From the IMG/VR virus record IMGVR_UViG_3300037507_000724, positions 1 to 23,232 of that record: a stretch of 23,232 bases of DNA; one strand, 5' to 3'. Under the pieces are notes generated by a model. The model saw nothing but the letters and a program-made list of their open reading frames with translations, ran no database searches and was not told the origin of the DNA. The position numbers were made by a program, and so were the translations under genes. This document shows positions 3,104 to 19,852 of this stretch, in pieces (within the stretch, counting starts at the first letter, position 1; every line of letters begins with the position of its first letter). Source of the stretch: a virus.

Positions 3104-4453
3104 TTAATAAAGCCTGACGCCCGTGCTGCGGCCAGCGCCAGCGTGCAGCGGGTTGAACTCGCGCCACACCAGGTAGCCGAGCGCGTCGTTCATGTGGTCA
3201 AAGCCCGCGTCCTTGTCCGGCTCGCCCTTGTCGGTGTAGCACTGCAGCTCCAGGCACTCGATCACGCGACGGCAGCCCTGCGCCACCTGTAGACGCACCT
3301 GCCCTTTGCCATTTTCCAGCAGCGCCTGCACGGCCGCTACCCGATCACGCACTGGCGGGTTGCTGCGTGGTGACTGGTTCGACATGCCGTAGGACTCCAG
3401 GATCTGGATGTCGGTCTGGCTTGCGTTGGTGCTGCGGCTGCCACCGCTGGCGTCGGGGTAGATGTAGATCTGCTGCTGCGGGTGCCGGCGGCGGATCTCT
3501 TGCGCTAAAGCGTCGGTGTCATGGGCACCGGCAATCTCGTCGATCACCAGCAGGCCGTTGTTCAGCCGGATGGCGATCACCGCAGACATGTTGCCCACGT
3601 TGAAGTCAATGCCAACCCGGATCGGCTCCGATGCAGTATTTGGCGGCTCTGCAATGCAGTGTTTGTTGCGGTCAAAGCGGTCATACACCTGCCCAGTTGT
3701 CAGGTTGACGAACTCGCCGTCGAGGTACGCCCGCAGCAGGCTCGGATCGTAGTTGGCTTCTAGTCGCTCGATGAAGTCCGGCGGCAGGTGTGGGTTGTCC
3801 GCCGTGCGCATCTTGATGAGCTGCCGGTCTGGCCGCTGCTTTGCCTCATCGCTGCCAAAGGTGTTCCACATCCACCGGAATCCCTCTGGCGTGGATGCCG
3901 CGCCAAACTGCCGGACATTGCCAGACCGCAAACGGCCAAGGATCTTCGGGAATGCCTTATTGGCAATGCTGGGCGTTACCGTGTCAATTTCGTCAGCCAA
4001 AACCCAGGCAAGGTTCAAGCCAATGATGCGGCTCCAGTTCTCAAAGCTGCGGCACAGGATCTTGGTGTCACCGCCCGGCAGGTGCAGCATGTACTCCGGC
4101 AGCGGCGACGCCCTGAAGGTGTACGGGATGTCGTACGCCTCAAGGAATGCCTCGAAGTCCGTCTGCCAGATGTCGCGGATCAGCGGTCCAGTTGGCTCCA
4201 TCACGCAGCCGATAAAGCCTTGGTTGACCGCTGCCAGCATCACGGCTTTAGCGCACAATGCCCTGGTCTTGCCAGCGCCATACCCCGCACTGATGCCAAG
4301 GATCTGCGTTGCAGTGTCATCGACAAACGCAAGCTGCCCAGGGTGCAGGTCGCTTCTGATACGCGCAACTAGATCACCCGTATCCTCTGGCGTCTGCTGC
4401 TGCATGAAAGCAAGCAGCGGCACTGGTTCACATATGCCAGACAGCAGGCTCAC
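3104..4453 (-). CDS. terL: Terminase large subunit
   Basis: The packaging motor: an ATPase that pumps DNA into the prohead plus a nuclease that cuts it. The 449-aa protein has the ATPase P-loop GYGAGKT (residues 57-63), a Walker B with DEID (154-157) and the coupling motif ASTPEG (about 186-191). The C-terminal RNase H-like nuclease shows GIDF (D283), YPDAS (D334) and a late HMNDALGY segment, giving the expected acidic triad. The start is GTG 4453, overlapping the TerS stop as GTGA; an internal ATG at 4405 is a possible alternative. TerS lies immediately upstream and the portal downstream, the standard order. Confidence 0.95.
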   Translation of the reverse strand: MSLLSGICEPVPLLAFMQQQTPEDTGDLVARIRSDLHPGQLAFVDDTATQILGISAGYGAGKTRALCAKAVMLAAVNQGFIGCVMEPTGPLIRDIWQTDFEAFLEAYDIPYTFRASPLPEYMLHLPGGDTKILCRSFENWSRIIGLNLAWVLADEIDTVTPSIANKAFPKILGRLRSGNVRQFGAASTPEGFRWMWNTFGSDEAKQRPDRQLIKMRTADNPHLPPDFIERLEANYDPSLLRAYLDGEFVNLTTGQVYDRFDRNKHCIAEPPNTASEPIRVGIDFNVGNMSAVIAIRLNNGLLVIDEIAGAHDTDALAQEIRRRHPQQQIYIYPDASGGSRSTNASQTDIQILESYGMSNQSPRSNPPVRDRVAAVQALLENGKGQVRLQVAQGCRRVIECLELQCYTDKGEPDKDAGFDHMNDALGYLVWREFNPLHAGAGRSTGVRLY

Positions 4454-4773
4454 GACATCTCAAACCGCAGCAGCCGGGCTTGCTTCTCAAGCGCCATCAA
4501 AGCGGTACCGAGTTGCTCTTTGTCTGATGCACGACGCTCATATTCCTGCAGCCTGGCAACGGCAGCCTCTAGCCATTGAGGCCGCTCTATCTCGGCGTCA
4601 AGCGATAGGAGTTGGCGAGCGCGAGCAATGTAAGCATCGGCCTGGCGCTCGCCTATTCCCCAGTTCTCCGCTGCAAATTGTATGATTTGCCTTCTACTAT
4701 GTGCACGCAAGAGCAAGCTGTAGACAGCATTTACACGCTGGTCAGACTCTGTATTGTTGCACTTGCGCGCCAT
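4450..4773 (-). CDS. terS: Terminase small subunit
   Basis: The DNA-recognition subunit of the packaging enzyme. It is 107 aa, with an N-terminal helix-turn-helix-like region (SRRQIIQFAAENWGIGERQADAYIARA, residues about 26-52) followed by a helical oligomerisation segment. This pattern is typical of small terminases. The ATG at 4773 is preceded by GGGAG seven bases upstream, one of the better ribosome sites on this strand. The gene overlaps TerL by 4 nt. Its upstream neighbour is the sliding-clamp gene, whose stop is only 4 nt away, so replication and packaging genes are in one transcription unit. Confidence 0.85.
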   Translation of the reverse strand: MARKCNNTESDQRVNAVYSLLLRAHSRRQIIQFAAENWGIGERQADAYIARARQLLSLDAEIERPQWLEAAVARLQEYERRASDKEQLGTALMALEKQARLLRFEMS

Positions 4774-4777
4774 TGTA

Positions 4778-5818
4778 TTACTCCCGGATTTGAATCGGCA
4801 TGATGAGATAAGTCTGCTCCGTCATGCTAGTCGGCCTTAGGACGACCGGCGTTGTTGCACTATTGGCCGACAGTGTAACAGTCTCCGCTTGGCGCATGGC
4901 CTTCAGTCCATCAAGCAGATAATGCACGTTGAACGCCCATGTGCCGGTTGCTGTGCCTTCGTAGGTGATCAGCTCTTTGCCGTTGTTGGCATCGGCCTCA
5001 GCGGTGATGGCAAGGCCACCTGATCCGGCGGTGAGCTTAACGACGGAGTTGTGCGCCTCTGCGATCAGGGAGACGCGCTCCAGGCACCGGGTAAAGCGAT
5101 GCCGGTCCAAGGTCATGGTGTGCTCAAAGCCGGCGGGCACCAGCGCTGCCACGTTGGGAAACTTGCCATCAAGGATGCGGCTGTAGATGGTGACGCCATC
5201 ACCGGCATCGATAACCGCCTGACCGGCTGCGGCAGCAATGCCGACGACTCGATCCTGCAGCAGCTTCATCGTGCTTGCTGGCAGAACCAGGTCGATGCCA
5301 TCGGGCAGCGCTACGGGCACACGCATCAGCCGGTGGCCGTCTGTGGCCTCCATGAAGCCGGCTGCCATGTGGATGCCTTGGAGGATCTGCTTGCTGCTGT
5401 CGGTGCTAACGGCAATCATGCAGGCACGCGCACCAGCGGTCAGGTCCAACTCGGTGCTAGGAGCCTCTACAACGGGCATGGCGGGGTAATCGGCTGCATC
5501 ACCCACAGCAAGCCCGTAAGAGCCGCTGGAGGCGCTCACAGCGCCGTCTGAGAGCGTCACAGGCTCGCCGTCGTCCATGCGGCTTACCAGACCCGCCAGC
5601 AGCCGATACGGCAGTGCCACGGTGCCAGCAGTGTCTATGGCTGCCGGTACGGACACCGTGATGCCGAGTTCCAGGTTGAAGCCTGTGACGGTCATGGTTG
5701 CGGCATCGGCAGCAATCAGGCAGCAGCTCAGGATTGGATGGCTGTTGCTGGTGCTGATGGCTGGAGCAATGGTGCGTAGCGCATAGCTGAGATCAGCCTG
5801 CGTGGTGATGAGTTTCAT
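4778..5818 (-). CDS. dnaN: DNA polymerase III beta sliding clamp, phage-encoded
   Basis: A 346-aa DnaN homologue, slightly shorter than cellular clamps. The clamp encircles DNA and tethers polymerase and other partners. The N-terminus (MKLITTQADLSYALRTI, then HPILSCCLI, TGFNLELGI) follows cyanobacterial DnaN closely. ATDGHRL in the middle domain and YLIMPIQIRE at the C-terminus (matching the YLIMP(M/I) ending of bacterial clamps) are diagnostic. It is ATGA-coupled to the 66-aa gene upstream. No DNA polymerase gene is visible in the window, so the protein probably loads on phage DNA and recruits host Pol III or phage factors. Acquisition from a cyanobacterial host is inferred from resemblance. 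Confidence 0.9.
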   Translation of the reverse strand: MKLITTQADLSYALRTIAPAISTSNSHPILSCCLIAADAATMTVTGFNLELGITVSVPAAIDTAGTVALPYRLLAGLVSRMDDGEPVTLSDGAVSASSGSYGLAVGDAADYPAMPVVEAPSTELDLTAGARACMIAVSTDSSKQILQGIHMAAGFMEATDGHRLMRVPVALPDGIDLVLPASTMKLLQDRVVGIAAAAGQAVIDAGDGVTIYSRILDGKFPNVAALVPAGFEHTMTLDRHRFTRCLERVSLIAEAHNSVVKLTAGSGGLAITAEADANNGKELITYEGTATGTWAFNVHYLLDGLKAMRQAETVTLSANSATTPVVLRPTSMTEQTYLIMPIQIRE

Positions 5819-6015
5819 GTGGCGGCATCGGTAAGGATGGAAACAATGCGCTCGTAGTCAGCGGCGAATGATGCAACCAGTTCAGCCGGGATTGGCTGCT
5901 GGTCATCTTGGGCATTGTCGCGGATGGCAGCGGCGTATGCAAGCGCATGCTCCATGGCGTCATGGAGCCGGTTGATTACGGGTTGCTGCTTGGCTGCGAT
6001 GTTGATGAGATCCAT
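5815..6015 (-). CDS. Small helical protein, 66 aa
   Basis: A 66-aa acidic, Ala-rich helical protein (MDLINIAAKQQPVINRLHDA at the start). No Cys, membrane segment or known motif. It overlaps the 3' end of the RHH gene by 40 nt in another frame and the start of the clamp gene by ATGA. This compact coupling supports expression. It could be a partner of the clamp or RHH protein, but nothing in the sequence proves this. Confidence 0.55.
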   Translation of the reverse strand: MDLINIAAKQQPVINRLHDAMEHALAYAAAIRDNAQDDQQPIPAELVASFAADYERIVSILTDAAT

Positions 6016-6248
6016 GTAATGACATAAGCGACAAGCTGCTCAACCATGCGCCGTGGGATGTCCCCGCGCACATTGGCTAGCGCGTCAGACACTAGTCGGT
6101 GATAACGCGCCACGGTGAGGCCACTGTCGCAATTCGCAACAAGCGCCCGACTGCGGATCAACTCGCTACGGCTGACGCCTGCCATAGCCGCCTGCTGGTC
6201 CAGCGCCACGAGGTCTGCAGGCTCAAAACGGACTTTGACTTCTTTCAT
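5976..6248 (-). CDS. Ribbon-helix-helix DNA-binding protein, 90 aa
   Basis: The N-terminus has the RHH pattern: a beta strand EVKVRFEPADLVALDQQA (residues 3-20) followed by AGVSRSELIRSRAL, where SRSELIR matches the second helix of Arc/CopG/MobC-type proteins. The C-terminal part may oligomerise. It is the first gene downstream of the iteron array, and one iteron copy (6254-6264) sits 6 nt in front of its ATG with no Shine-Dalgarno visible. It is a candidate iteron-binding protein or autorepressor. Which protein binds the iterons is not shown by the sequence. Confidence 0.75.
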   Translation of the reverse strand: MKEVKVRFEPADLVALDQQAAMAGVSRSELIRSRALVANCDSGLTVARYHRLVSDALANVRGDIPRRMVEQLVAYVITWISSTSQPSSNP

Positions 6249-6253
6249 TTGGT

Positions 6254-6537
6254 GGCGGACGCAAGGAATGCAGTGTAGGACAGGGATCTCAGTGATGGCG
6301 GACGCAAGTGAGCCATAGGCGGACGCAAAAAACCTAGTCGTAGCAAGGGAGGACGCAAAATCGGGTTTTTCCCTTACCCCCCCTATACGTTCTACACCTT
6401 CCCCCCTCCCGTTTTTCTATACACGATATTTATCCCCTATTTGCGTCCGCCAAGGTAAAAAGATAGATAGAGACAGGGTTTTTGCGTCCGCCATTTGCGT
6501 CCGCCTAGCGTCCGCCGTGACGCAAGTTGCGTCCGCC
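6254..6537. repeat. Candidate replication origin: two opposed arms of 11-bp iterons
   Basis: The unit GGCGGACGCAA occurs in the left arm at 6254, 6297, 6318 and 6348 (last with one mismatch). It occurs inverted (TTGCGTCCGCC) in the right arm at 6441, 6482, 6495, 6506 (one mismatch) and 6527. A partial forward copy is at 6519-6525. An exact forward copy at 6602-6612 and a partial inverted copy at 6551-6557 lie inside the primase gene. Start-to-start spacings (43, 21, 30; 41, 13, 11, 21) mostly fall near whole helical turns. The arms flank a pyrimidine-rich core and adjoin the primase-helicase gene. This matches iteron origins in general layout. The 296-base gap holds no convincing gene. Confidence 0.7.
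6366..6440 (+). other. Pyrimidine-rich core between iteron arms
   Basis: Seventy-five bases between the two iteron arms contain only three G on the plus strand, with C-runs, T-runs and two TATAC-containing segments (6384-6388 and 6418-6422). Such strongly strand-asymmetric, partly AT-rich sequence is a plausible duplex-unwinding or primer-synthesis site. No open reading frame or strong promoter was identified here. Confidence 0.5.
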
Positions 6538-6544
6538 AACCGTC

Positions 6545-8914
6545 TCACCATGCGTCCATCCTGAGACCCTCGATAAGACGGTCACGGGATTTGCCGCCTC
6601 TGGCGGACGCAAGTTTTGGGAAGATCTGCCGCAGCGCCGGCACCAGCAGTCGTGGCGCCTTGACCGTCCGGTCGGTCGGTGGATCCATAAGCCAGCGGTC
6701 ATTCTTATCTAAATACCCCTCATCTCTGTACCAGGTTTGCAATGCTTCCCAGACGCGCTTTACGGATACTGTTGCACCTTCCTCATGGTGCAATCCAATG
6801 GCATCGCAGAACTCCCAGAGGTGACAACTTGCACGCCTGACATCCTCCATGGCCTGCCGACCTGAGCTGTAGTCGATGCCATATTCGATAGCCAAAGACA
6901 AGCCTTCTAGCAGCCAATTGAGAAACGCTGGGCATATCTGCTGCTGGATGAAGTCGGGGTCATCCTTTAACCGTGGATCCGCTTGAATGTGGCTTGATTC
7001 TGTAGGCGTTGCCATGAACGTCTTGCGGAACCTGAACACATGGAACCGGGTCTCGATGGCCACCTGATCACCGGACAGCGACGGGTCTTTGTTCAGGTTG
7101 AACACGAACAACGACGACGGCACAAACTGGGATTCCTGTACACCTTTGAGTTCGTAAGACAGCTCCTCGCCGCTAATTGCAGCCTTGAGTGACTGCAGGT
7201 TGTCGATATGTACAAACTGACTATTTTCGCTGGACCAGTTGACCGAGGCGCCACGCAGCGGGGCGATTGGAAACTTGCGGCCTTGGTCGTACTGGCGGAA
7301 GTCGGCCAGAGAGCAAGACGTGAAATTACGACTGCCGAGGGTGTCGCGCAAGGCAGTGCGGATGGTGTCTTTGCCGTTGCTGCCCTCACCAATCATGAGC
7401 ACTGCCCGAGGCCTGCCGCGTGTGGCTCGGTATTTGGTCAGGTCAAGGCCGCTGCCAAGGATGCGCTGCAGCGTGTCACGGTCACCGGGTTCGACAGCTT
7501 CTAGTAGCCGCCATAGGTGCTGGGGGTTGGCTTCCGGGTCGTAGGCGTAAGCGGTGACGTAGGTGAAGGCAGTGTCTGGATCGTGTGACGTGAATGCGTA
7601 ATTGAGTTTGCGGCCTGCCCATGACCACGACACCACGCCATTGGCGCAGTTGATCGCATTGGCCGGGTTGACTGGCACAGGGTCCAGCAGCCGCCGCATC
7701 CATGCGAGGGCTTCATCGACGTATTTAGGGCGCTTCCACGGGTAGCAGCGCTCGCCGTTGCGGGCATCGACAACATGCATCTGCGATAGCAGTGCAGCGA
7801 TACTGGGCGCTAGCTCCTCGTCGGTAATCGGCTTGTAATGGGTGCCGCACCAGCAATGCAGCACGCCATCAACGCAGATCCACCGTGGCGACTGCGCTTG
7901 GAACACATGGCGCACCACCAGATCGAGCCATTCGGTGTCGGTTTTGTTGTAGAGCTGCAGGTTGATCACCTCAGGCTCTACTGCTGTGGTCTCACGGCTG
8001 CGCCTGCTGCGTGGTGCTGGCACGGCAGGCTTCCAGCCGTGATGCCGCGCCCAGTACCAAAACGTGCCAGCACTAATTTGATCACCACCAGAGCCGGCAA
8101 TCTGCTGCAGACCATGCCACTCGGGGCTGTGCTGCTGCATTAGGGCAATGGCCTGGTCGGAGTCACCGCAGGCTTTGATCAGCCCCCAGAAAATGTTGCG
8201 GTAGATGTGGTAGGTGCCGGTGCCGGGCTGGCGCTGCGGGATAAACGCAAGCGCCTCGCGTACCTCGTCAATGCTGCGCTCGATCGGTTCGGCGTAGGAC
8301 TGAGCCGGCCGCTCGTGTTGGTAATAGGTCTCTGACGGCAGGGCGGCCTCAATGTCAGCCACGCTGTAACGGTGCCCTGCATGGGACACCATCTGACACA
8401 TTTCGCCTAGCTCACCATCGGCACCGGCGTGGAAGGTGCCTGGTAGCCGCATGACACGGGCTGGATTCTTGATGCTGCGGTCGGCATCGGCGTAATCAAG
8501 CAGCCGGGTCTGCAGCAGACGCCAGTGCTCAATGGTGATCGGCTCAGACAGAACCCAGTAGTTGTGGATCGACTTGCCGCCGGTTGACACCTGCATGGTC
8601 GGCTCGGGCAGCCGCAGTTCTTGCCATGCGGTGAGCTGCCAGTCGGTTGGTCTGTCGTCCCATTCGCAGAAAAACGCACGGCAGGTGGTGATGTCGGCGT
8701 CCTTGTCGCCTCCGTCGTTGATGACGACATAAACGCCGCGGCCTTCGCGCTGCCACTCGTTGATGCGGATGCGCGAGAAGCCGCCTTTGCGGCCTGCATC
8801 GCCTGCTTTTTTGGGATTCTCAGCGTGGTAGAACGCCCGCAGGCGTATCTCACCAGCAGGCTTGCCCAAGGCATGGACAAACTGCCTGCCCAGCTCAAAG
8901 TCAATGTCCTTCAT
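6545..8914 (-). CDS. Primase-helicase (RepB-type primase plus SF3 helicase)
   Basis: A 789-aa replication initiator-type protein. The N-terminal AEP-like primase domain carries CEWDD (83-87), TGGKSIHNYW (111-120) and RLPGTFHA (156-163), matching RepB-type primases. The C-terminal half is an SF3/D5-type helicase with Walker A GEGSNGKDT (509-517), a Walker B region VNWSSEN (558-564) and a motif C segment SLFVFNLNKDP near residue 610. The fusion would unwind and prime phage DNA, probably at the adjacent iteron array, as in P4-alpha-like systems. It overlaps the 57-aa RHH gene by ATGA. Two iteron copies, one exact and one partial, lie inside its 3' end, so origin and gene have co-evolved or overlap. 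Confidence 0.9.
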   Translation of the reverse strand: MKDIDFELGRQFVHALGKPAGEIRLRAFYHAENPKKAGDAGRKGGFSRIRINEWQREGRGVYVVINDGGDKDADITTCRAFFCEWDDRPTDWQLTAWQELRLPEPTMQVSTGGKSIHNYWVLSEPITIEHWRLLQTRLLDYADADRSIKNPARVMRLPGTFHAGADGELGEMCQMVSHAGHRYSVADIEAALPSETYYQHERPAQSYAEPIERSIDEVREALAFIPQRQPGTGTYHIYRNIFWGLIKACGDSDQAIALMQQHSPEWHGLQQIAGSGGDQISAGTFWYWARHHGWKPAVPAPRSRRSRETTAVEPEVINLQLYNKTDTEWLDLVVRHVFQAQSPRWICVDGVLHCWCGTHYKPITDEELAPSIAALLSQMHVVDARNGERCYPWKRPKYVDEALAWMRRLLDPVPVNPANAINCANGVVSWSWAGRKLNYAFTSHDPDTAFTYVTAYAYDPEANPQHLWRLLEAVEPGDRDTLQRILGSGLDLTKYRATRGRPRAVLMIGEGSNGKDTIRTALRDTLGSRNFTSCSLADFRQYDQGRKFPIAPLRGASVNWSSENSQFVHIDNLQSLKAAISGEELSYELKGVQESQFVPSSLFVFNLNKDPSLSGDQVAIETRFHVFRFRKTFMATPTESSHIQADPRLKDDPDFIQQQICPAFLNWLLEGLSLAIEYGIDYSSGRQAMEDVRRASCHLWEFCDAIGLHHEEGATVSVKRVWEALQTWYRDEGYLDKNDRWLMDPPTDRTVKAPRLLVPALRQIFPKLASARGGKSRDRLIEGLRMDAW

Positions 8915-9560: not shown

Positions 9561-9763
9561 CCGTTATGGACCCAACAACTGCATTTGATCATCGGCTACA
9601 GCACGTCCCTTATAAATGGAAAAGCCCAATTTCCGAGGTCGTAGACACGTTTGAAACAGTACAAATTGGGCTTAAAAGCATCGGCATTGAAGATCCTTTT
9701 GTGTTGATTGAAGCCGTAAGGCTTGTTTTTGATCGCTATGACAAAGCAAACCCTGAAGAATGA
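9557..9763 (+). CDS. Hypothetical protein, 68 aa
   Basis: Overlaps the HNH stop as ATGA and the helicase-methyltransferase start as ATGA. A second start at 9566 (MDPTTAF) would give 65 aa. The protein looks globular and acidic, with a helical C-terminal half (VLIEAVRLVFDRYDKAN). No motif is recognised. Base composition is AT-rich like the HNH gene, so the two may have arrived together. Confidence 0.6.
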   Translation: MTVMDPTTAFDHRLQHVPYKWKSPISEVVDTFETVQIGLKSIGIEDPFVLIEAVRLVFDRYDKANPEE

Positions 9764-12018
9764 CCTACTCCGACTTCCTAGCCTCCAAATCAACCGCCTG
9801 CCCTGCTGCTGGGTTTGATCCGCAGCAGTTCACCGCGCCGCTGTTCCCTTTTCAGCGGGACATCGTGACCATGGCCTGCCGCGTTGGCAGGTTCTGTATC
9901 TGGGCCGACTGCGGCATGGGCAAAACCGCCATGCAGCTCGAATGGGCGCATCAGGTGCATCGGCACACAGGCGGCAACGTGCTGGTGTTAGCACCACTAG
10001 CCGTGGCGCATCAGACCGTCCGCGAGGGCAGCAAGTTCGGCATCCCGTGCGCGTTTGCTGCAACGCAAGGCGAGGTCAAGCCAGGCATCACGGTCACCAA
10101 CTATGAGAAGCTCGGCCACTTCGAGCCGACCGCCTTCGATGGCGTGGTGCTCGATGAGAGCAGCATCCTCAAGGCGTACACCGGCAAGATCCGCAACCAG
10201 ATCATCGAGTCGTTCGCGCAGACACCATTTCGTCTGGCTTGCTCAGCCACGCCAGCGCCCAACGACCACATGGAGCTGGGCAACCATGCCGAGTTCATCG
10301 GCGTGATGACCAGGACCGAGATGCTGGCCATGTTCTTCGTCCATGACGGCGGCGACACCAGTAAATGGCGGCTCAAGGGGCACGCACAGTCCAAGTTCTG
10401 GGAGTGGGTCTGCAGCTGGGCCGTCACCATCCGCAAGCCGTCAGATCTGGGCTACGACGATGGCAGCTTCATCCTGCCCGAGTTATCCATTCAAGATTGC
10501 ACTGTCGAGACACCACGGGAGGCCATGGCGGACGACGCTGGCCAGATGGCGCTGTTCGCCATGGAAGCCCGCACCCTGAGCGATCAGCGGCATGTGCGCA
10601 AGGCATCGCTGCAGATGCGCGTTGATGCAGCCGCTGCATTGGCCAACGACAGCACCGAGCAATGGCTGGTCTGGTGTGATCTCAACGATGAATCCAAGGC
10701 GCTCACTGCTGCTATCGATGGCGCGGTTGAGGTGTCAGGCAGTGACAGTGACGACCATAAGCGCCGTGCCGCGATCGACTTTCAAGATGGCAAGATTCGG
10801 GTGCTGGTGAGCAAGCCCAGCATTTTCGGCTTTGGCCTCAACTTTCAGGGCTGCCACAATGTCGCATTCGTTGGCTTGTCGCACAGCTACGAGGCGTTCT
10901 ATCAAGCGATCCGCCGGTGCTGGCGATTCGGGCAGCAACACCCGGTCAATGCGCACATCATCTACGACGTAGCCGAGGGCCGCGTGATCGAGAACATCCG
11001 CCGCAAGGAAGCGGACAGCATCGCAATGGCTGAGTCAATGGTCACCATCATGAAGCAAACCACCATGGAACAACTCAAAAAGATCCAGCGTCAGGTTGCG
11101 CCGCACATCACCGAGCGCCAGTCAGGCGACAACTGGGATCTGTACATGGGCGACTGTGTTGAGAGCATTAAGCAGATTGACTCAAACAGCATCCACTACA
11201 GCATCTTTAGCCCGCCGTTTGCGTCGCTGTACACCTATTCCAACAGCGACCGCGACATGGGCAACAGCCGCAACGACCAGGAGTTCTTCGATCACTTCGT
11301 CTACCTGGCCAAGGAGCTGCATCGCGTGCTGATGCCCGGCCGGCTGATCAGCTTCCACTGCATGAATTTGCCCAGCAGCAAAGAGCGCGACGGCTTCATC
11401 GGCGTGAAGGATTTTCGCGGTGACATGCTGCGCATCTTTCAAGCTGCTGGCTTTGTCTTCCATTCAGAGGTCTGCATCTGGAAGGACCCCGTCACCGCCA
11501 TGCAGCGCACTAAGGCGATCGGCCTGCTGCACAAGCAGATCCGTAAGGACTCAGCCCTAAGCCGTCAGGGCATCCCTGACTATCTGGTCACGGTGCGCAA
11601 GTTGGGCGACAACCCCGAACCATGCGCTGGCCCGTTCACTGAGTTCGCTGGCGAGAACCCACCAGCCAAGACAGGCGACGCCATCAAGGACAGCATCAAC
11701 ATCTGGCAGCGCTACGCCAGCCCGGTGTGGATGGACATCAACCCATCCGACACGCTGCAATACCGCAGCGCCCGCGCCAATGACGACGAGAGGCACATCT
11801 GCCCGCTGCAGCTTGAGGTGATCCGTCGGGGGATGCAGCTATGGAGCAACCCAGGCGATCTGGTGCTCAGCCCATTCGCTGGCATCGGCAGCGAGGGCTA
11901 CGTCAGCTTGCAGATGGGCCGCCGGTTCGTCGGCTTTGAGCTGAAGCCCAGCTACTTCAACTGCGCGGTTAAAAACCTGCAGTCAGTTGAGTCGCACAAG
12001 CAGGGAGAGCTGGTGTGA
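9760..12018 (+). CDS. SNF2-type helicase fused to DNA amino-methyltransferase
   Basis: A 752-aa two-domain protein. Residues 1 to about 440 form an SF2 ATPase: ADCGMGKT (49-56), motif II LDESS (131-135), SATPAPN (162-168) and a motif VI region RRCWRFGQQ with GFGLNFQGC before it. Residues about 450-752 form a beta-class amino-methyltransferase, with catalytic motif IV SPPF (484-487) preceding the SAM-binding motif SPFAGIGSEGY (704-714) and GFELKPSYF. SPP(Y/F) is common in N4-cytosine enzymes, but N6-adenine cannot be excluded. It is ATGA-linked to its neighbours, including a second helicase and a VRR nuclease. Likely roles are protection from host restriction or modification coupled to replication. 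Confidence 0.88.
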   Translation: MTYSDFLASKSTACPAAGFDPQQFTAPLFPFQRDIVTMACRVGRFCIWADCGMGKTAMQLEWAHQVHRHTGGNVLVLAPLAVAHQTVREGSKFGIPCAFAATQGEVKPGITVTNYEKLGHFEPTAFDGVVLDESSILKAYTGKIRNQIIESFAQTPFRLACSATPAPNDHMELGNHAEFIGVMTRTEMLAMFFVHDGGDTSKWRLKGHAQSKFWEWVCSWAVTIRKPSDLGYDDGSFILPELSIQDCTVETPREAMADDAGQMALFAMEARTLSDQRHVRKASLQMRVDAAAALANDSTEQWLVWCDLNDESKALTAAIDGAVEVSGSDSDDHKRRAAIDFQDGKIRVLVSKPSIFGFGLNFQGCHNVAFVGLSHSYEAFYQAIRRCWRFGQQHPVNAHIIYDVAEGRVIENIRRKEADSIAMAESMVTIMKQTTMEQLKKIQRQVAPHITERQSGDNWDLYMGDCVESIKQIDSNSIHYSIFSPPFASLYTYSNSDRDMGNSRNDQEFFDHFVYLAKELHRVLMPGRLISFHCMNLPSSKERDGFIGVKDFRGDMLRIFQAAGFVFHSEVCIWKDPVTAMQRTKAIGLLHKQIRKDSALSRQGIPDYLVTVRKLGDNPEPCAGPFTEFAGENPPAKTGDAIKDSINIWQRYASPVWMDINPSDTLQYRSARANDDERHICPLQLEVIRRGMQLWSNPGDLVLSPFAGIGSEGYVSLQMGRRFVGFELKPSYFNCAVKNLQSVESHKQGELV

Positions 12019-14178: not shown

Positions 14179-14367
14179 ATGACATCAGACGACTTCTGGA
14201 CATTCCAGACCGCCAAGCAGCACGGCGGCGGGTTCATCTCCCGCCTTGCCGATGCAGGGTTGGTGGCTGACCCCAATAACCGGCAGACCCTGCTGCAGGC
14301 ATTCCCCCAACTGCAGCATTGCTTTGGACCCCAGACCTTGATCCACCGACAACTGAGGCAGAAATGA
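14179..14367 (+). CDS. Hypothetical protein, 62 aa
   Basis: Starts at ATG 14179 (MTSDDFWTFQTAKQHGGGFI) and ends by overlapping the exonuclease start as ATGA (14364-14367). It contains SRLADAGLVADPNNRQTLL, a segment I associate with small phage proteins next to recombination genes, without a known function. Compact, soluble, one Cys. It contains the GAGG ribosome site for the exonuclease in its 3' end, so coupling is likely. Confidence 0.65.
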   Translation: MTSDDFWTFQTAKQHGGGFISRLADAGLVADPNNRQTLLQAFPQLQHCFGPQTLIHRQLRQK

Positions 14368-15155
14368 CGATCACTAACGAGCAGTACCACGCCGACCCGG
14401 CCGTCAGCGCCAGTCACCTCAAAGCGGTAATGCAATCGCCTTACCACTACTGGAGCCGGTACGTTGACCCCAACCGCAAACCGGTTGAACCGACCGCTGC
14501 AATGAAGCTGGGCAGCCTTGCCCATTGCGCCATTCTCGAACCAGAGGAGCTGCTGCAGCGCTACGGCATCTGCGCACCACGCAACACCAAGGCCGGCAAA
14601 GAGCAAGCCGCGGCCATGGAGGCCGATGGCATCGAGGTAGTCACCAGCTCAGACATGGCGCTTGCCATGGGCATGAGCGCTGCGGTGCAGGCACACTCTG
14701 CAGCGTATGCACTGCTTAAAGAGGGCAAAGCCGAGCAGTCGTTCTGGTGGGATGACCTAGCCACCGGCATGCGTTGCAAGTGCCGCCCGGACTGGTATCA
14801 GGGCAGCACCATCGTGGACATCAAGACCACCACCGACGCCAGCCCGCAGGCGTTCGCCCGCAGCGTGGCCACCTTTGGCTACCACATCCAGGCAGCGCAT
14901 TACCTCGAAGGACTGTCAGATCGCTGCCAGCGCTTTGTGTTCGTGGCAGTCGAGAAGACCTACCCGCACGCCGTCGCGGTTTACGAGCTTGACGCTGAAG
15001 CCCTTGCATTAGGGCGGACCATGCGGGACAATGGCATGGACGTGATCGCCGGATGCCATGCCGCCAATGTGTGGCCGGGCTACGGCGACACGATCATCCA
15101 GACCATCAGCCTGCCTAAGTGGGCGACAAATCCCATCGAAACCCAAACCTTCTGA
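14364..15155 (+). CDS. RecE-like PD-(D/E)XK exonuclease
   Basis: A 263-aa nuclease of the RecE C-terminal/exonuclease VIII type. Motifs: [11 protein letters not shown] (50-60, with His54), KCRPDW (Asp143), TIVDIKTT (Asp152, Lys154) and QAAHY (Gln176 to Tyr180), which is the RecB-like QxxxY motif. It would chew dsDNA 5' to 3' and hand 3' single strands to the annealase encoded next. ATG 14364 has GAGG five bases upstream. The gene overlaps the annealase start as TGATG. An open extension upstream to 14319 is ignored because of this ribosome site and the ATGA junction. Confidence 0.88.
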
Positions 15156-15907
15156 TGTCAACAGCAATTACTACCTGGACTCCTGACCAGGTCCAACTGA
15201 TCAGCAGCACCATTGCGCCAGGCTGCACTAACGACGAGCTGCGGCTGTTTGCCTATGCCTGCCAGCGCACGGGGCTAGATCCGTTTAGCAAGCAGATCTA
15301 CGCCATCAAGCGTGGCGGCAAGATGACCATCCAAGCCGGCATTGATGGCCTCCGTGCCATTGCCGAGCGCACCGGACAGCTTGACGGCAGCCAAACCGAA
15401 TGGTGCGGCGAGGAGGGCGACTGGCGTGATGTGTGGCTTGCAGTCAAGCCGCCTGCTGCAGCTAAGACCACCATCTGGCGCAAAGGCAGCCAGCACCCGT
15501 TTGTTGGTGTTGCCCGCTTTGCGGATTACAACGCCGGCCAAGGACTGTGGTCCAAAATGCCTGCCGCGATGATCGCCAAATGCTCCGAGGCACTGGCGCT
15601 GCGTAAGGCGTTCCCTGCTGACATGTCCGGCGTCTACACCACTGACGAGATGGACCAGGCCACCGAGCCTGTAACGGTCACTACTGAGGCCGCGCCTGCA
15701 CTGCCTGCTGTCAAGGCCAAAGACACCAGCAAGACCTTCACCGCTGGTGCTGCCGCCATCGCTAAGGCCAAGAGCCTGCAGGACCTTGAAGACCTGCAAC
15801 CCCGCATGGCAAAGCGGCTAGAGGACGGCGACCTGACGCAAGAGCAGCACGACAAACTCTTGCAGCAGATGCTTGAGAAGGAGGCTGACCTTGTATCTGA
15901 CGACTGA
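15155..15907 (+). CDS. bet: Bet/RecT-family single-strand annealing protein
   Basis: A 250-aa annealase. The N-terminal core has [20 protein letters not shown] and [17 protein letters not shown], the conserved pattern of Bet-type annealing proteins; the middle has [21 protein letters not shown], also characteristic. The C-terminus is a variable Ala-rich linker and a charged helix. It pairs single strands exposed by the upstream exonuclease, and the SSB encoded two genes downstream probably acts with it. Starts at ATG 15155 in a TGATG overlap. The last codons contain an AAGGAGG ribosome site for the next gene. Confidence 0.92.
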
Positions 15908-16094
15908 ACAGCTAGCAGCACGCTGGGGCTTGAAGCCAAGCACCATCAAGTCCCAGCGGCTGCGTAACCAAGGACCGTCCTATTACACGGTCCCCCGGTT
16001 CGGCTTGCCCTTAGGTGAGTCGCGGGTCAGGTATCCCATAGCGGATGTGCTGGCCTTTGAAGAATCCAATTCCATTACCCCCATCAACCCATGA
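15891..16094 (+). CDS. Excisionase/MerR-like helix-turn-helix protein, 67 aa (TTG start)
   Basis: The best start is TTG 15891, because AAGGAGG (15878-15884) lies six bases upstream inside the annealase gene. An earlier in-frame TTG at 15873 would put this site inside the coding region. The protein begins [20 protein letters not shown], a winged-helix HTH of the excisionase/MerR type, and continues with [10 protein letters not shown], the family's usual last helix. It overlaps the SSB start as ATGA. It may be a DNA-architecture or regulatory protein; no integrase is in the window, so an excision role is not supported. Confidence 0.75.
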
Positions 16095-16432
16095 GCCTTT
16101 ATGCTTCCGGCGTCGTTCGTATTATTAGCGAACCGCAGATTAAGTTTTTTGATTCTGGCACTTGTGTTTGCAACTTCGGTGGTGGCATCAGCGAAGGCAA
16201 AGACAAAGATGGCAATTACATCAATAATGCCATTGACGTAGAAGTCTGGGGCAAGGGCGGCGAGATGATTGCCGACAACTGCAAAAAAGGCGACAGCATT
16301 ATGGTGACAGGTGCCATCCGCCGCCAAGACTGGACCGATAAAGAGTCTGGCACCAAGCGCAGCAAGCATGTGCTGAACGTGCAACGGTTTGAGTACCTGC
16401 CACGCACCAAGACTGAGGAGGCTGCATTCTGA
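16091..16432 (+). CDS. ssb: Single-stranded DNA-binding protein
   Basis: A 113-aa OB-fold SSB. Typical elements are GVVRIISEPQIKFF, CNFGGGISEGKDKDG, the NAIDVEVWGKGGEMIADNCKKGD strand-helix region, and IMVTGAIRRQDWTDKESG. It is shorter than bacterial SSB and lacks the long linker, but ends TEEAAF, a weak echo of the acidic -DDDIPF tip used to recruit partners. ATGA-coupled to the HTH gene; followed by a TGATG overlap. It should coat single strands made by the exonuclease and at the origin. The gene is more AT-rich than the annealase. Confidence 0.88.
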   Translation: MSLYASGVVRIISEPQIKFFDSGTCVCNFGGGISEGKDKDGNYINNAIDVEVWGKGGEMIADNCKKGDSIMVTGAIRRQDWTDKESGTKRSKHVLNVQRFEYLPRTKTEEAAF

Positions 16433-18838: not shown

Positions 18839-19852
18839 ATGGCTGACAGCATCAAAGACTACCTCAACAGTATCGCCAAATATCCACTACTGACACCGCA
18901 GCAAGAGATACAACTTGGCAGGCGTGTCATTAGATGGCAAGAATTAAGACAATGCGACAGGGAGCTAACCCGTGATGAGCAACGCGAGTTGCGAAGCGGT
19001 GAACGCGCTAGGCAACGGTTTATTAAGTCCAACCTGCAGCTTGTAGTCCATGTAGCCCGCAAGTACGACAAGCGCAGCAACAAGACGCTTGAGTTGATGG
19101 ACTTGATCCAAGAGGGCAATATCGGCCTTGCGCGTGCGGTTGAGCTATTCGACCCGTCACGCGGTTACAAGTTTTCAACTTATGCCTATTGGTGGATCAG
19201 GCAAGGCATTACGCGGGCATTGATCCAGCATGACTCCATAATTCGCCTGCCAACCAGTTTGCATGAGATGCTGTACAAGATAAACCGCACCATGCAGGAT
19301 CTAAGCCATAAGATCGGCAGACAGCCAACCATGAGCGAAATCTCTAGCGCACTGGATATGGACGTAGAAGAGCTGTCATACCTGTTAAAGCAAACCTATA
19401 AAGTGACAAGCCTAGACCAGCGAGTTGCTGACACCGAGACAACATGCATCGGTGACAACATTGCTGACCCTAACTACGACAATGACCTGATAGAAACACG
19501 ACAAGAGATACGCGAATTGATGGATTGTTTTAACAAATACTTAGACCCGTTGACCAAACAAGTAATCCATGCCAGAAACCTTGCGCGGCCTGTCACCTGG
19601 GCGCAACTTGAACAGCAAACAGGCGTCAGCCGCACCAAGCTGCAAAACCTAGAGCGTCGTGGCATTAGCCGCCTTCGTATGCTGATGAGCAACCCATTAA
19701 GCAATACCCCGCTTGGCCATGTCGAAACCAACAATCAGCCGCTATCAGGATGTATGGAGGGTTTGCTTCAACGGTATGTGCCGAGAGCACAGGCAGCAGT
19801 GGCAAGCACTGATTTTTTACCATCAGATGCTCAATCAACCAACCAATCCTGA
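18839..19852 (+). CDS. Group-2 sigma70-family factor, phage-encoded
   Basis: A 337-aa sigma factor. Region 1.2 is DSIKDYLNSIAKYPLLTPQQ, typical of cyanobacterial sigma factors. Region 2 has SNLQLVVHVARKY, LMDLIQEGNIGLARAVE, then YKFSTYAYWWIRQGITRAL (-10 recognition). Region 3 follows (IGRQPTMSEISSALDM). Region 4 is present but diverged: it lacks the usual RYGL segment, and the HTH reads GVSRTKLQNLERRGISRLR instead of the standard TRERIRQIE-type helix. A C-terminal tail of about 50 residues, rich in Ser, Asn and Gln, is extra. It could redirect host RNA polymerase to phage promoters. It is the last gene of the rightward block, and its end overlaps the opposing HNH gene by 22 nt. Confidence 0.9.
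   Translation: MADSIKDYLNSIAKYPLLTPQQEIQLGRRVIRWQELRQCDRELTRDEQRELRSGERARQRFIKSNLQLVVHVARKYDKRSNKTLELMDLIQEGNIGLARAVELFDPSRGYKFSTYAYWWIRQGITRALIQHDSIIRLPTSLHEMLYKINRTMQDLSHKIGRQPTMSEISSALDMDVEELSYLLKQTYKVTSLDQRVADTETTCIGDNIADPNYDNDLIETRQEIRELMDCFNKYLDPLTKQVIHARNLARPVTWAQLEQQTGVSRTKLQNLERRGISRLRMLMSNPLSNTPLGHVETNNQPLSGCMEGLLQRYVPRAQAAVASTDFLPSDAQSTNQS

Follow-up and report, generated by a model that had tools for sequence, protein, structure and literature searches.

A phage DnaN-type sliding clamp beside exchangeable primases and putative origins in relatives of cyanophages

The literature leaves open how cyanophages without a polymerase gene replicate, a question that has been raised for cyanopodoviruses, and the use of host Pol III is one of the hypotheses put forward for them in a published survey (PMC9860041). 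The window analyzed here, a virus record of 23,232 bases, carries a gene for a DnaN-type beta sliding clamp next to its terminase genes and no visible polymerase. This locus raises the question of which replication proteins such a clamp works with, and what it does for the phage. Since the window is a fragment of a genome, its relatives were needed for the full gene list.

The clamp and its gene neighborhood

The clamp gene (4778..5818, minus strand) encodes a protein of 346 aa from an ATG start, with three clamp domains indicated by family matches and a fold model. The Pfam domains DNA_pol3_beta, DNA_pol3_beta_2 and DNA_pol3_beta_3 were each above the cut-off and in order, the curated equivalog model for DnaN, TIGR00663 (NCBIfam), gave 162 bits (cut-off 137.65), and PHROG 947, described as 'DNA polymerase processivity factor', matched residues 1–344 (E = 1.7e-57). 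Homologues were found at 80 loci with 77–94% identity, stop codons were absent from all of the full-length copies checked (n = 78), and differences from the copy at one locus (L002) were distributed 27/7/71 over the three codon positions, the third predominating. Based on these observations the open reading frame does not exist by chance, and the sequence comparison indicates purifying selection on the clamp. An AlphaFold model built from an alignment of 56 diverse viral and bacterial relatives reached a pLDDT of 92.2 and a pTM of 0.86, superseding an earlier run on 28 near-identical clamps (pLDDT 44). The best 50 PDB matches listed for this model were all bacterial beta clamps, with TM scores of 0.83–0.90 and 19–27% identity, and as modelled the protein has the beta-clamp fold. 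The first-pass annotation had read this gene as a full-length DnaN, which is borne out by the reading frame, the Pfam, TIGR00663 and PHROG 947 matches and the model.

Pocket and interface residues were mapped through the Salmonella clamp, which follows E. coli numbering. Residues L146, G148, T159, G161, H162, R163, L164, P221, N297, Y300, M340 and P341 of the window clamp are the same as in the Salmonella pocket. The hydrophobic partner pocket, defined by TDGHRL, P242, N320, Y323 and an MP near the C-terminus, is present, and the positions of R246, M364 and R365 differ. At the dimer interface, the positions Y101, L103, L251, I252, R248 and E282 are unchanged or conservatively substituted, while the charged interface residues R103, R105, E300 and E303 of E. 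coli beta are altered. The DNA-facing R24, R80, R168, R197 and K198 of E. coli beta correspond to non-basic residues in the window clamp. Of the dimer-interface residues, whose loss had been named beforehand as an argument against a ring, the hydrophobic ones are retained and several charged ones are not.

On the minus strand, the genes follow the order of a primase/helicase, a 296-base gap, a gene for an RHH protein, a 66-aa ORF, the clamp, a gene in the TerS position and the terminase large subunit. The primase/helicase (6545..8914) contains D5_N and DUF5906 with a P4-like C-terminal part; it is the putative initiator and is represented by other types in relatives. The RHH (NikA/CopG-like) DNA-binding protein (5976..6248) stands at the start of the clamp operon. 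The 66-aa ORF (5815..6015) overlaps the clamp start by 4 nt; in window-family loci whose sequence extends far enough, it is nearly always present upstream of the clamp. The TerS-position gene (4450..4773, 107 aa) follows 4 nt after the clamp and is exchanged in relatives, and the TerL gene (3104..4453) was identified by Pfam and PHROG matches. The clamp had been placed between an RHH/origin region and the terminase genes (TerS–TerL), and this position is correct.

The plus strand encodes a fusion of an SNF2-type helicase with an N6/N4 methyltransferase (9760..12018), which carries the motif QMALF, and a RecE/exonuclease VIII-like nuclease (14319..15155), with a second helicase and a VRR-NUC-like gene between the two. 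These are followed on the same strand by a RecT/Bet-type annealing protein (15119..15907), a single-stranded DNA-binding protein (SSB; 16091..16432) recognized by its similarity to the annotated SSB of Synechococcus phage S-H1 (31%), and a cyanobacterial RpoD-type sigma factor (18839..19852) recognized by family matches. The sigma factor is 337 aa long in the window versus about 294–300 aa in relatives, and its Pfam regions 1.2, 2 and 3 were matched and region 4 was not. The clamp of S-H1, in a like gene order, is 41% identical to that of the window, and the SNF2-methyltransferase of S-CBS3 shows 85% to the window's; on this sequence evidence, the window phage is a relative of cyanophages.

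To place the clamp among other clamps, we used a tree of 42 rows, in which the cyanobacterial dnaN rows came from plasmids and chromosomal cyanobacterial DnaN was not among them. The window clamp fell in a viral clade of 14 rows (99/97), nested in a clade of 25 rows that unites cyanophage clamps with dnaN from cyanobacterial plasmids (95/99), in agreement with the cyanobacterial character ascribed to it from the sequence alone. The clamp of Rhizobium phage 16-3 grouped with Alphaproteobacteria and that of Arthrobacter phage Persistence with Actinomycetota, that is, with the bacterial groups of their hosts, which suggests that phages have captured clamps several times and separately. The first-pass annotation had also held a cellular-type clamp to be out of the ordinary for a phage, and this view is not supported: PHROG 947 is an established family of DnaN-type phage clamps, and several unrelated phages carry one. 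In the same tree, the clamp of the 'Microcystis' phage Mae-JY04 (L083, PP395637.1, 19947–21074) grouped with Alphaproteobacteria, and the fetched part of that genome has 64.6% GC; considering both, its stated host may merit checking. We also observed cyanobacterial plasmids with dnaN beside dnaX (L110, L112, L113, L132 and L133), plus holA in Planktothrix, which constitute partial Pol III sets.

A putative origin and the exchange of primases

An AT-rich core in the gap between the primase/helicase and RHH genes (6249..6544, no strand assigned) is surrounded by two opposed arrays of TTGCGTCCGCC iterons. These number nine, of which seven are exact and two carry a single mismatch, and the 3' end of the primase gene holds a tenth (6602–6612). 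All ten TTGCGTCCGCC matches of the 23 kb window fall in 6254–6612, and ten were reached in none of 100 shuffles. The gap is a putative replication origin, judged from its repeats.

The association of primase and iteron was examined in the 58 window-family loci holding both genes. Seven loci have a D5/DUF5906 primase, 13 a Zn-ribbon/Toprim-like primase and 38 a PrimPol-VapE primase, and on the clamp tree no fewer than 14 switches of primase type are needed. Each type comes with iterons of its own. All seven D5/DUF5906 loci carry the GCGTCCGCC iteron in 8 copies (0.005 in shuffled regions), all 38 PrimPol-VapE loci a AGGTGGGG-like iteron in 8–11 copies (0.2 in shuffled regions), and all 13 Zn-ribbon/Toprim-like loci a CCGTTAGG-like iteron in 3–5 copies (0.02 in shuffled regions). 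Iteron sequence class and primase type thus agree in all 58 loci. The motifs were derived from the same data by primase type, and the classes are distinct save that two Zn-type regions each contain one B-type match. When phylogenetically independent pairs were compared, primase and iteron changed jointly in 12 of 12 pairs for the VapE type (p = 0.0005); the corresponding counts for the two remaining types were 8 of 8 and 6 of 6. In the S-H1 family, the Zn-type primase is likewise accompanied by a CCGTTAGG-type iteron (3/3 loci), and the window-family iteron motif was absent in two S-H1-family loci with a VapE-type primase.

Clamps that are 95.7% identical in DNA adjoin different primase types. 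Similarity between the primase types is confined to short weak stretches at most, the best being a 72-aa stretch shared by VapE and DUF5906 (E = 0.002), so that distant homology is possible for some of them. The RHH protein is 75–100% identical across window-family loci. The iterons were also considered as an RHH operator, which is less likely, since RHH is conserved while the iterons switch with the primase. In two loci of the VapE type (L045 and L048), the gap between primase and RHH is 535 bases compared to the usual ~275. Judged from these sequences, initiator and origin look like a plug-in cassette beside a fixed clamp.

The missing polymerase and the role of the clamp

We searched 14 window relatives for family A (PolA), family B (PolB) and Pol III alpha polymerases and found none, with controls matched in known genomes. 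A DnaX/HolB-type loader was likewise not detected in these 14 relatives, with controls matched, the search covering DnaX/HolB-type models as distinct from T4-type gp44/62 models. A search for PolB2 was left uncounted, as it matched no control genome. In S-H1, there was no match to PolA, PolB, Pol III alpha or a DnaX/HolB-type loader. Two of the relatives have terminal repeats, of 127 bp in G011 (41,868 bases) and 153 bp in G002 (41,137 bases), and their records are therefore probably complete. The lack of a visible polymerase, remarked on in the first-pass annotation, holds in the 23 kb window and in 14 of 14 related records, including these two of ~41 kb; a polymerase gene with its own clamp partner elsewhere in the genome had been named beforehand as an argument against the proposed roles of the clamp, and no polymerase was detected in the 14 relatives. 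Two side observations concern the related records themselves. An ORF in G002 (L093, 8418–12152) resembles tail protein J and opens with a match to a Hint/intein-like domain (residues 7–146). The record G001 (L096–L098), of 58,956 bases, resembles a 41.7 kb genome in which one portion is duplicated in diverged form and is possibly a chimeric or concatemeric assembly.

The VapE-type primase of relatives carries a Prim-Pol domain, by which it might carry out limited DNA synthesis. Several unrelated clamp-bearing phages are also without a PolA, PolB or Pol III alpha match: no match was above the cut-off in the DnaN-bearing phages 16-3, Persistence, Salinibacter M8CR30-2 and Mae-JY04. The DnaN-bearing Nodularia phage 2AV2 had a weak PolA-like match under the cut-off. 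The annotation of Burkholderia phage KL1 has a polymerase and a DnaN-type clamp together (PMC3483164).

The explanation that we favor, and consider fairly probable, is that the window encodes a ring-forming DnaN clamp, derived long ago from a cyanobacterial dnaN, that links the phage initiator and origin to the host loader and host Pol III. The phage primase/helicase would bind the iterons in 6249–6544, open the AT-rich core, unwind the DNA and prime it; the host clamp loader would place the phage-encoded clamp at primed ends; and the partner pocket of the clamp would hold host Pol III, by which the phage genome would be copied. Ring assembly, loading by the host, recruitment of Pol III and the binding of iterons by the primase are steps that we infer. 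The capture of host Pol III, suggested previously for this clamp, gains support at the sequence level from the lack of any PolA, PolB, Pol III alpha or DnaX/HolB match in relatives together with the kept pocket residues.

The clamp, the RHH gene and the 66-aa ORF stay in place while the initiator and origin on one side and the TerS-position gene on the other change, which makes a dedicated partnership of the clamp with either neighbor unlikely. From the comparison of loci, it is probably a constant adapter to the host replisome, with an interchangeable initiator-origin unit. A further reading, to which we give somewhat less than an even chance, is a modular replicon. Here, origin cassettes built on at least three types of initiator-primase, every type having an iteron code of its own, would be swapped, and the fixed clamp would make any of them fit host Pol III. 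If this is true, foreign origins would find in the clamp a universal socket supplied by the phage. Several points count against the favored explanation. S-CBS3 and S-LBS1 share parts of the early gene set and are annotated without a clamp; host Pol III is thus presumably usable without a phage clamp. The Prim-Pol domain of the VapE-type primase and the altered DNA-facing and charged interface residues of the clamp also count against it.

It is possible, and in our judgment unlikely, that the clamp is chiefly a tool-belt that the phage uses in recombination, repair or methylation, with RecE/RecT and the SNF2-methyltransferase as partners, and not for bulk replication. The window does hold a RecE-like nuclease, RecT and SSB, and QMALF in the SNF2-methyltransferase (residues 262–266, about 10543–10557) is the only strict clamp-binding-like motif found and is fixed in near relatives carrying this fusion. 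However, one strict motif against 0.23 expected in the proteome is weak. QMALF is lost in S-H1 and in L048, both of which bear a clamp; QMGLF stands at its site in S-CBS3, whose annotation has no clamp; and the genomes G008, G011 and G012, which bear a clamp, yielded no homologue of the SNF2-methyltransferase. QMALF was dropped as a clamp-partner motif, as motif and clamp do not consistently occur together.

Slightly less probable again is that the clamp substitutes for or out-competes the host clamp, either to starve or redirect host replication or to evade an inhibitor or defence directed at clamps. The divergence of the clamp from cyanobacterial plasmid DnaN (about 26–31% identity) with the pocket nevertheless retained is what a substitute would look like, but no clamp-inhibitor gene was identified by a search with family libraries. 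A role in the manner of T4 gp45, in which the clamp would tie replication to packaging or to late transcription through TerS or the phage sigma factor, had been proposed and is very improbable. In its favor, the TerS-position gene lies 4 nt from the clamp in the window and in most loci, and a sigma factor is encoded in the window. The TerS link was rejected because this gene falls into five clusters at 50% identity, its type varying next to a clamp that is kept throughout. The window sigma ends in STDFLPSDAQSTNQS, with no hydrophobic/acidic tail like that of gp55/gp33, and sigma differs in length among relatives (about 294 to 337 aa).

Comparison with known systems

The clamp protein itself is a further member of a known phage DnaN family, with S-H1 as an annotated precedent in the database. 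The arrangement is new: a constant phage clamp stands beside interchangeable initiator-origin cassettes, without a detected replicative polymerase or loader. The window group offers a specific and testable case of polymerase-less replication in another cyanophage type, in which the phage would supply the clamp and its own initiator and origin, and the host the polymerase and loader. The clamp provides a handle on which parts of the host replisome a phage must replace, and the one-to-one match of iteron and primase yields predicted origins and initiator specificities for dozens of uncultured phages.

Among the nearest known systems is S-H1 (host WH 7803; MK105819), whose 41% identical clamp is annotated as DNA polymerase III beta subunit. 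S-H1 has the order of primase, RHH-like gene, clamp, TerS-position gene and TerL, no PolA, PolB or Pol III alpha match, and CCGTTAGG-type iterons like those of window relatives with a Zn-ribbon primase. It differs in that its clamp belongs to another clade, its primase is Zn-ribbon/Toprim-like and not D5/DUF5906, and SNF2 and methyltransferase are separate genes. The dnaN genes of cyanobacterial plasmids (Trichormus, Sphaerospermopsis, Planktothrix and others) share the DnaN fold family and the cyanobacterial clade with the window clamp at 26–31% identity; in contrast, they are longer, with C-terminal extensions in those aligned, and of six whose surroundings were examined, five have dnaX after them and one holA. 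The DnaN clamps of phages 16-3, Persistence, M8CR30-2 and 2AV2 belong to the same PHROG 947, but their gene neighborhoods are unlike that of the window. T4 gp45 is also a phage-encoded sliding clamp, whereas the window clamp belongs to the bacterial DnaN family; the phage polymerase and loader that accompany the clamp in a gp45-type system had no counterpart among the PolA, PolB, Pol III alpha and DnaX/HolB-type searches in relatives. The putative origin resembles the pri-rep-ori layout of phage-inducible chromosomal islands (PICIs), where two sets of iterons flank an AT-rich core 3' of the initiator/primase gene (PMC6092414). In the window, this layout sits in the genome of a tailed phage with its own clamp and terminase.
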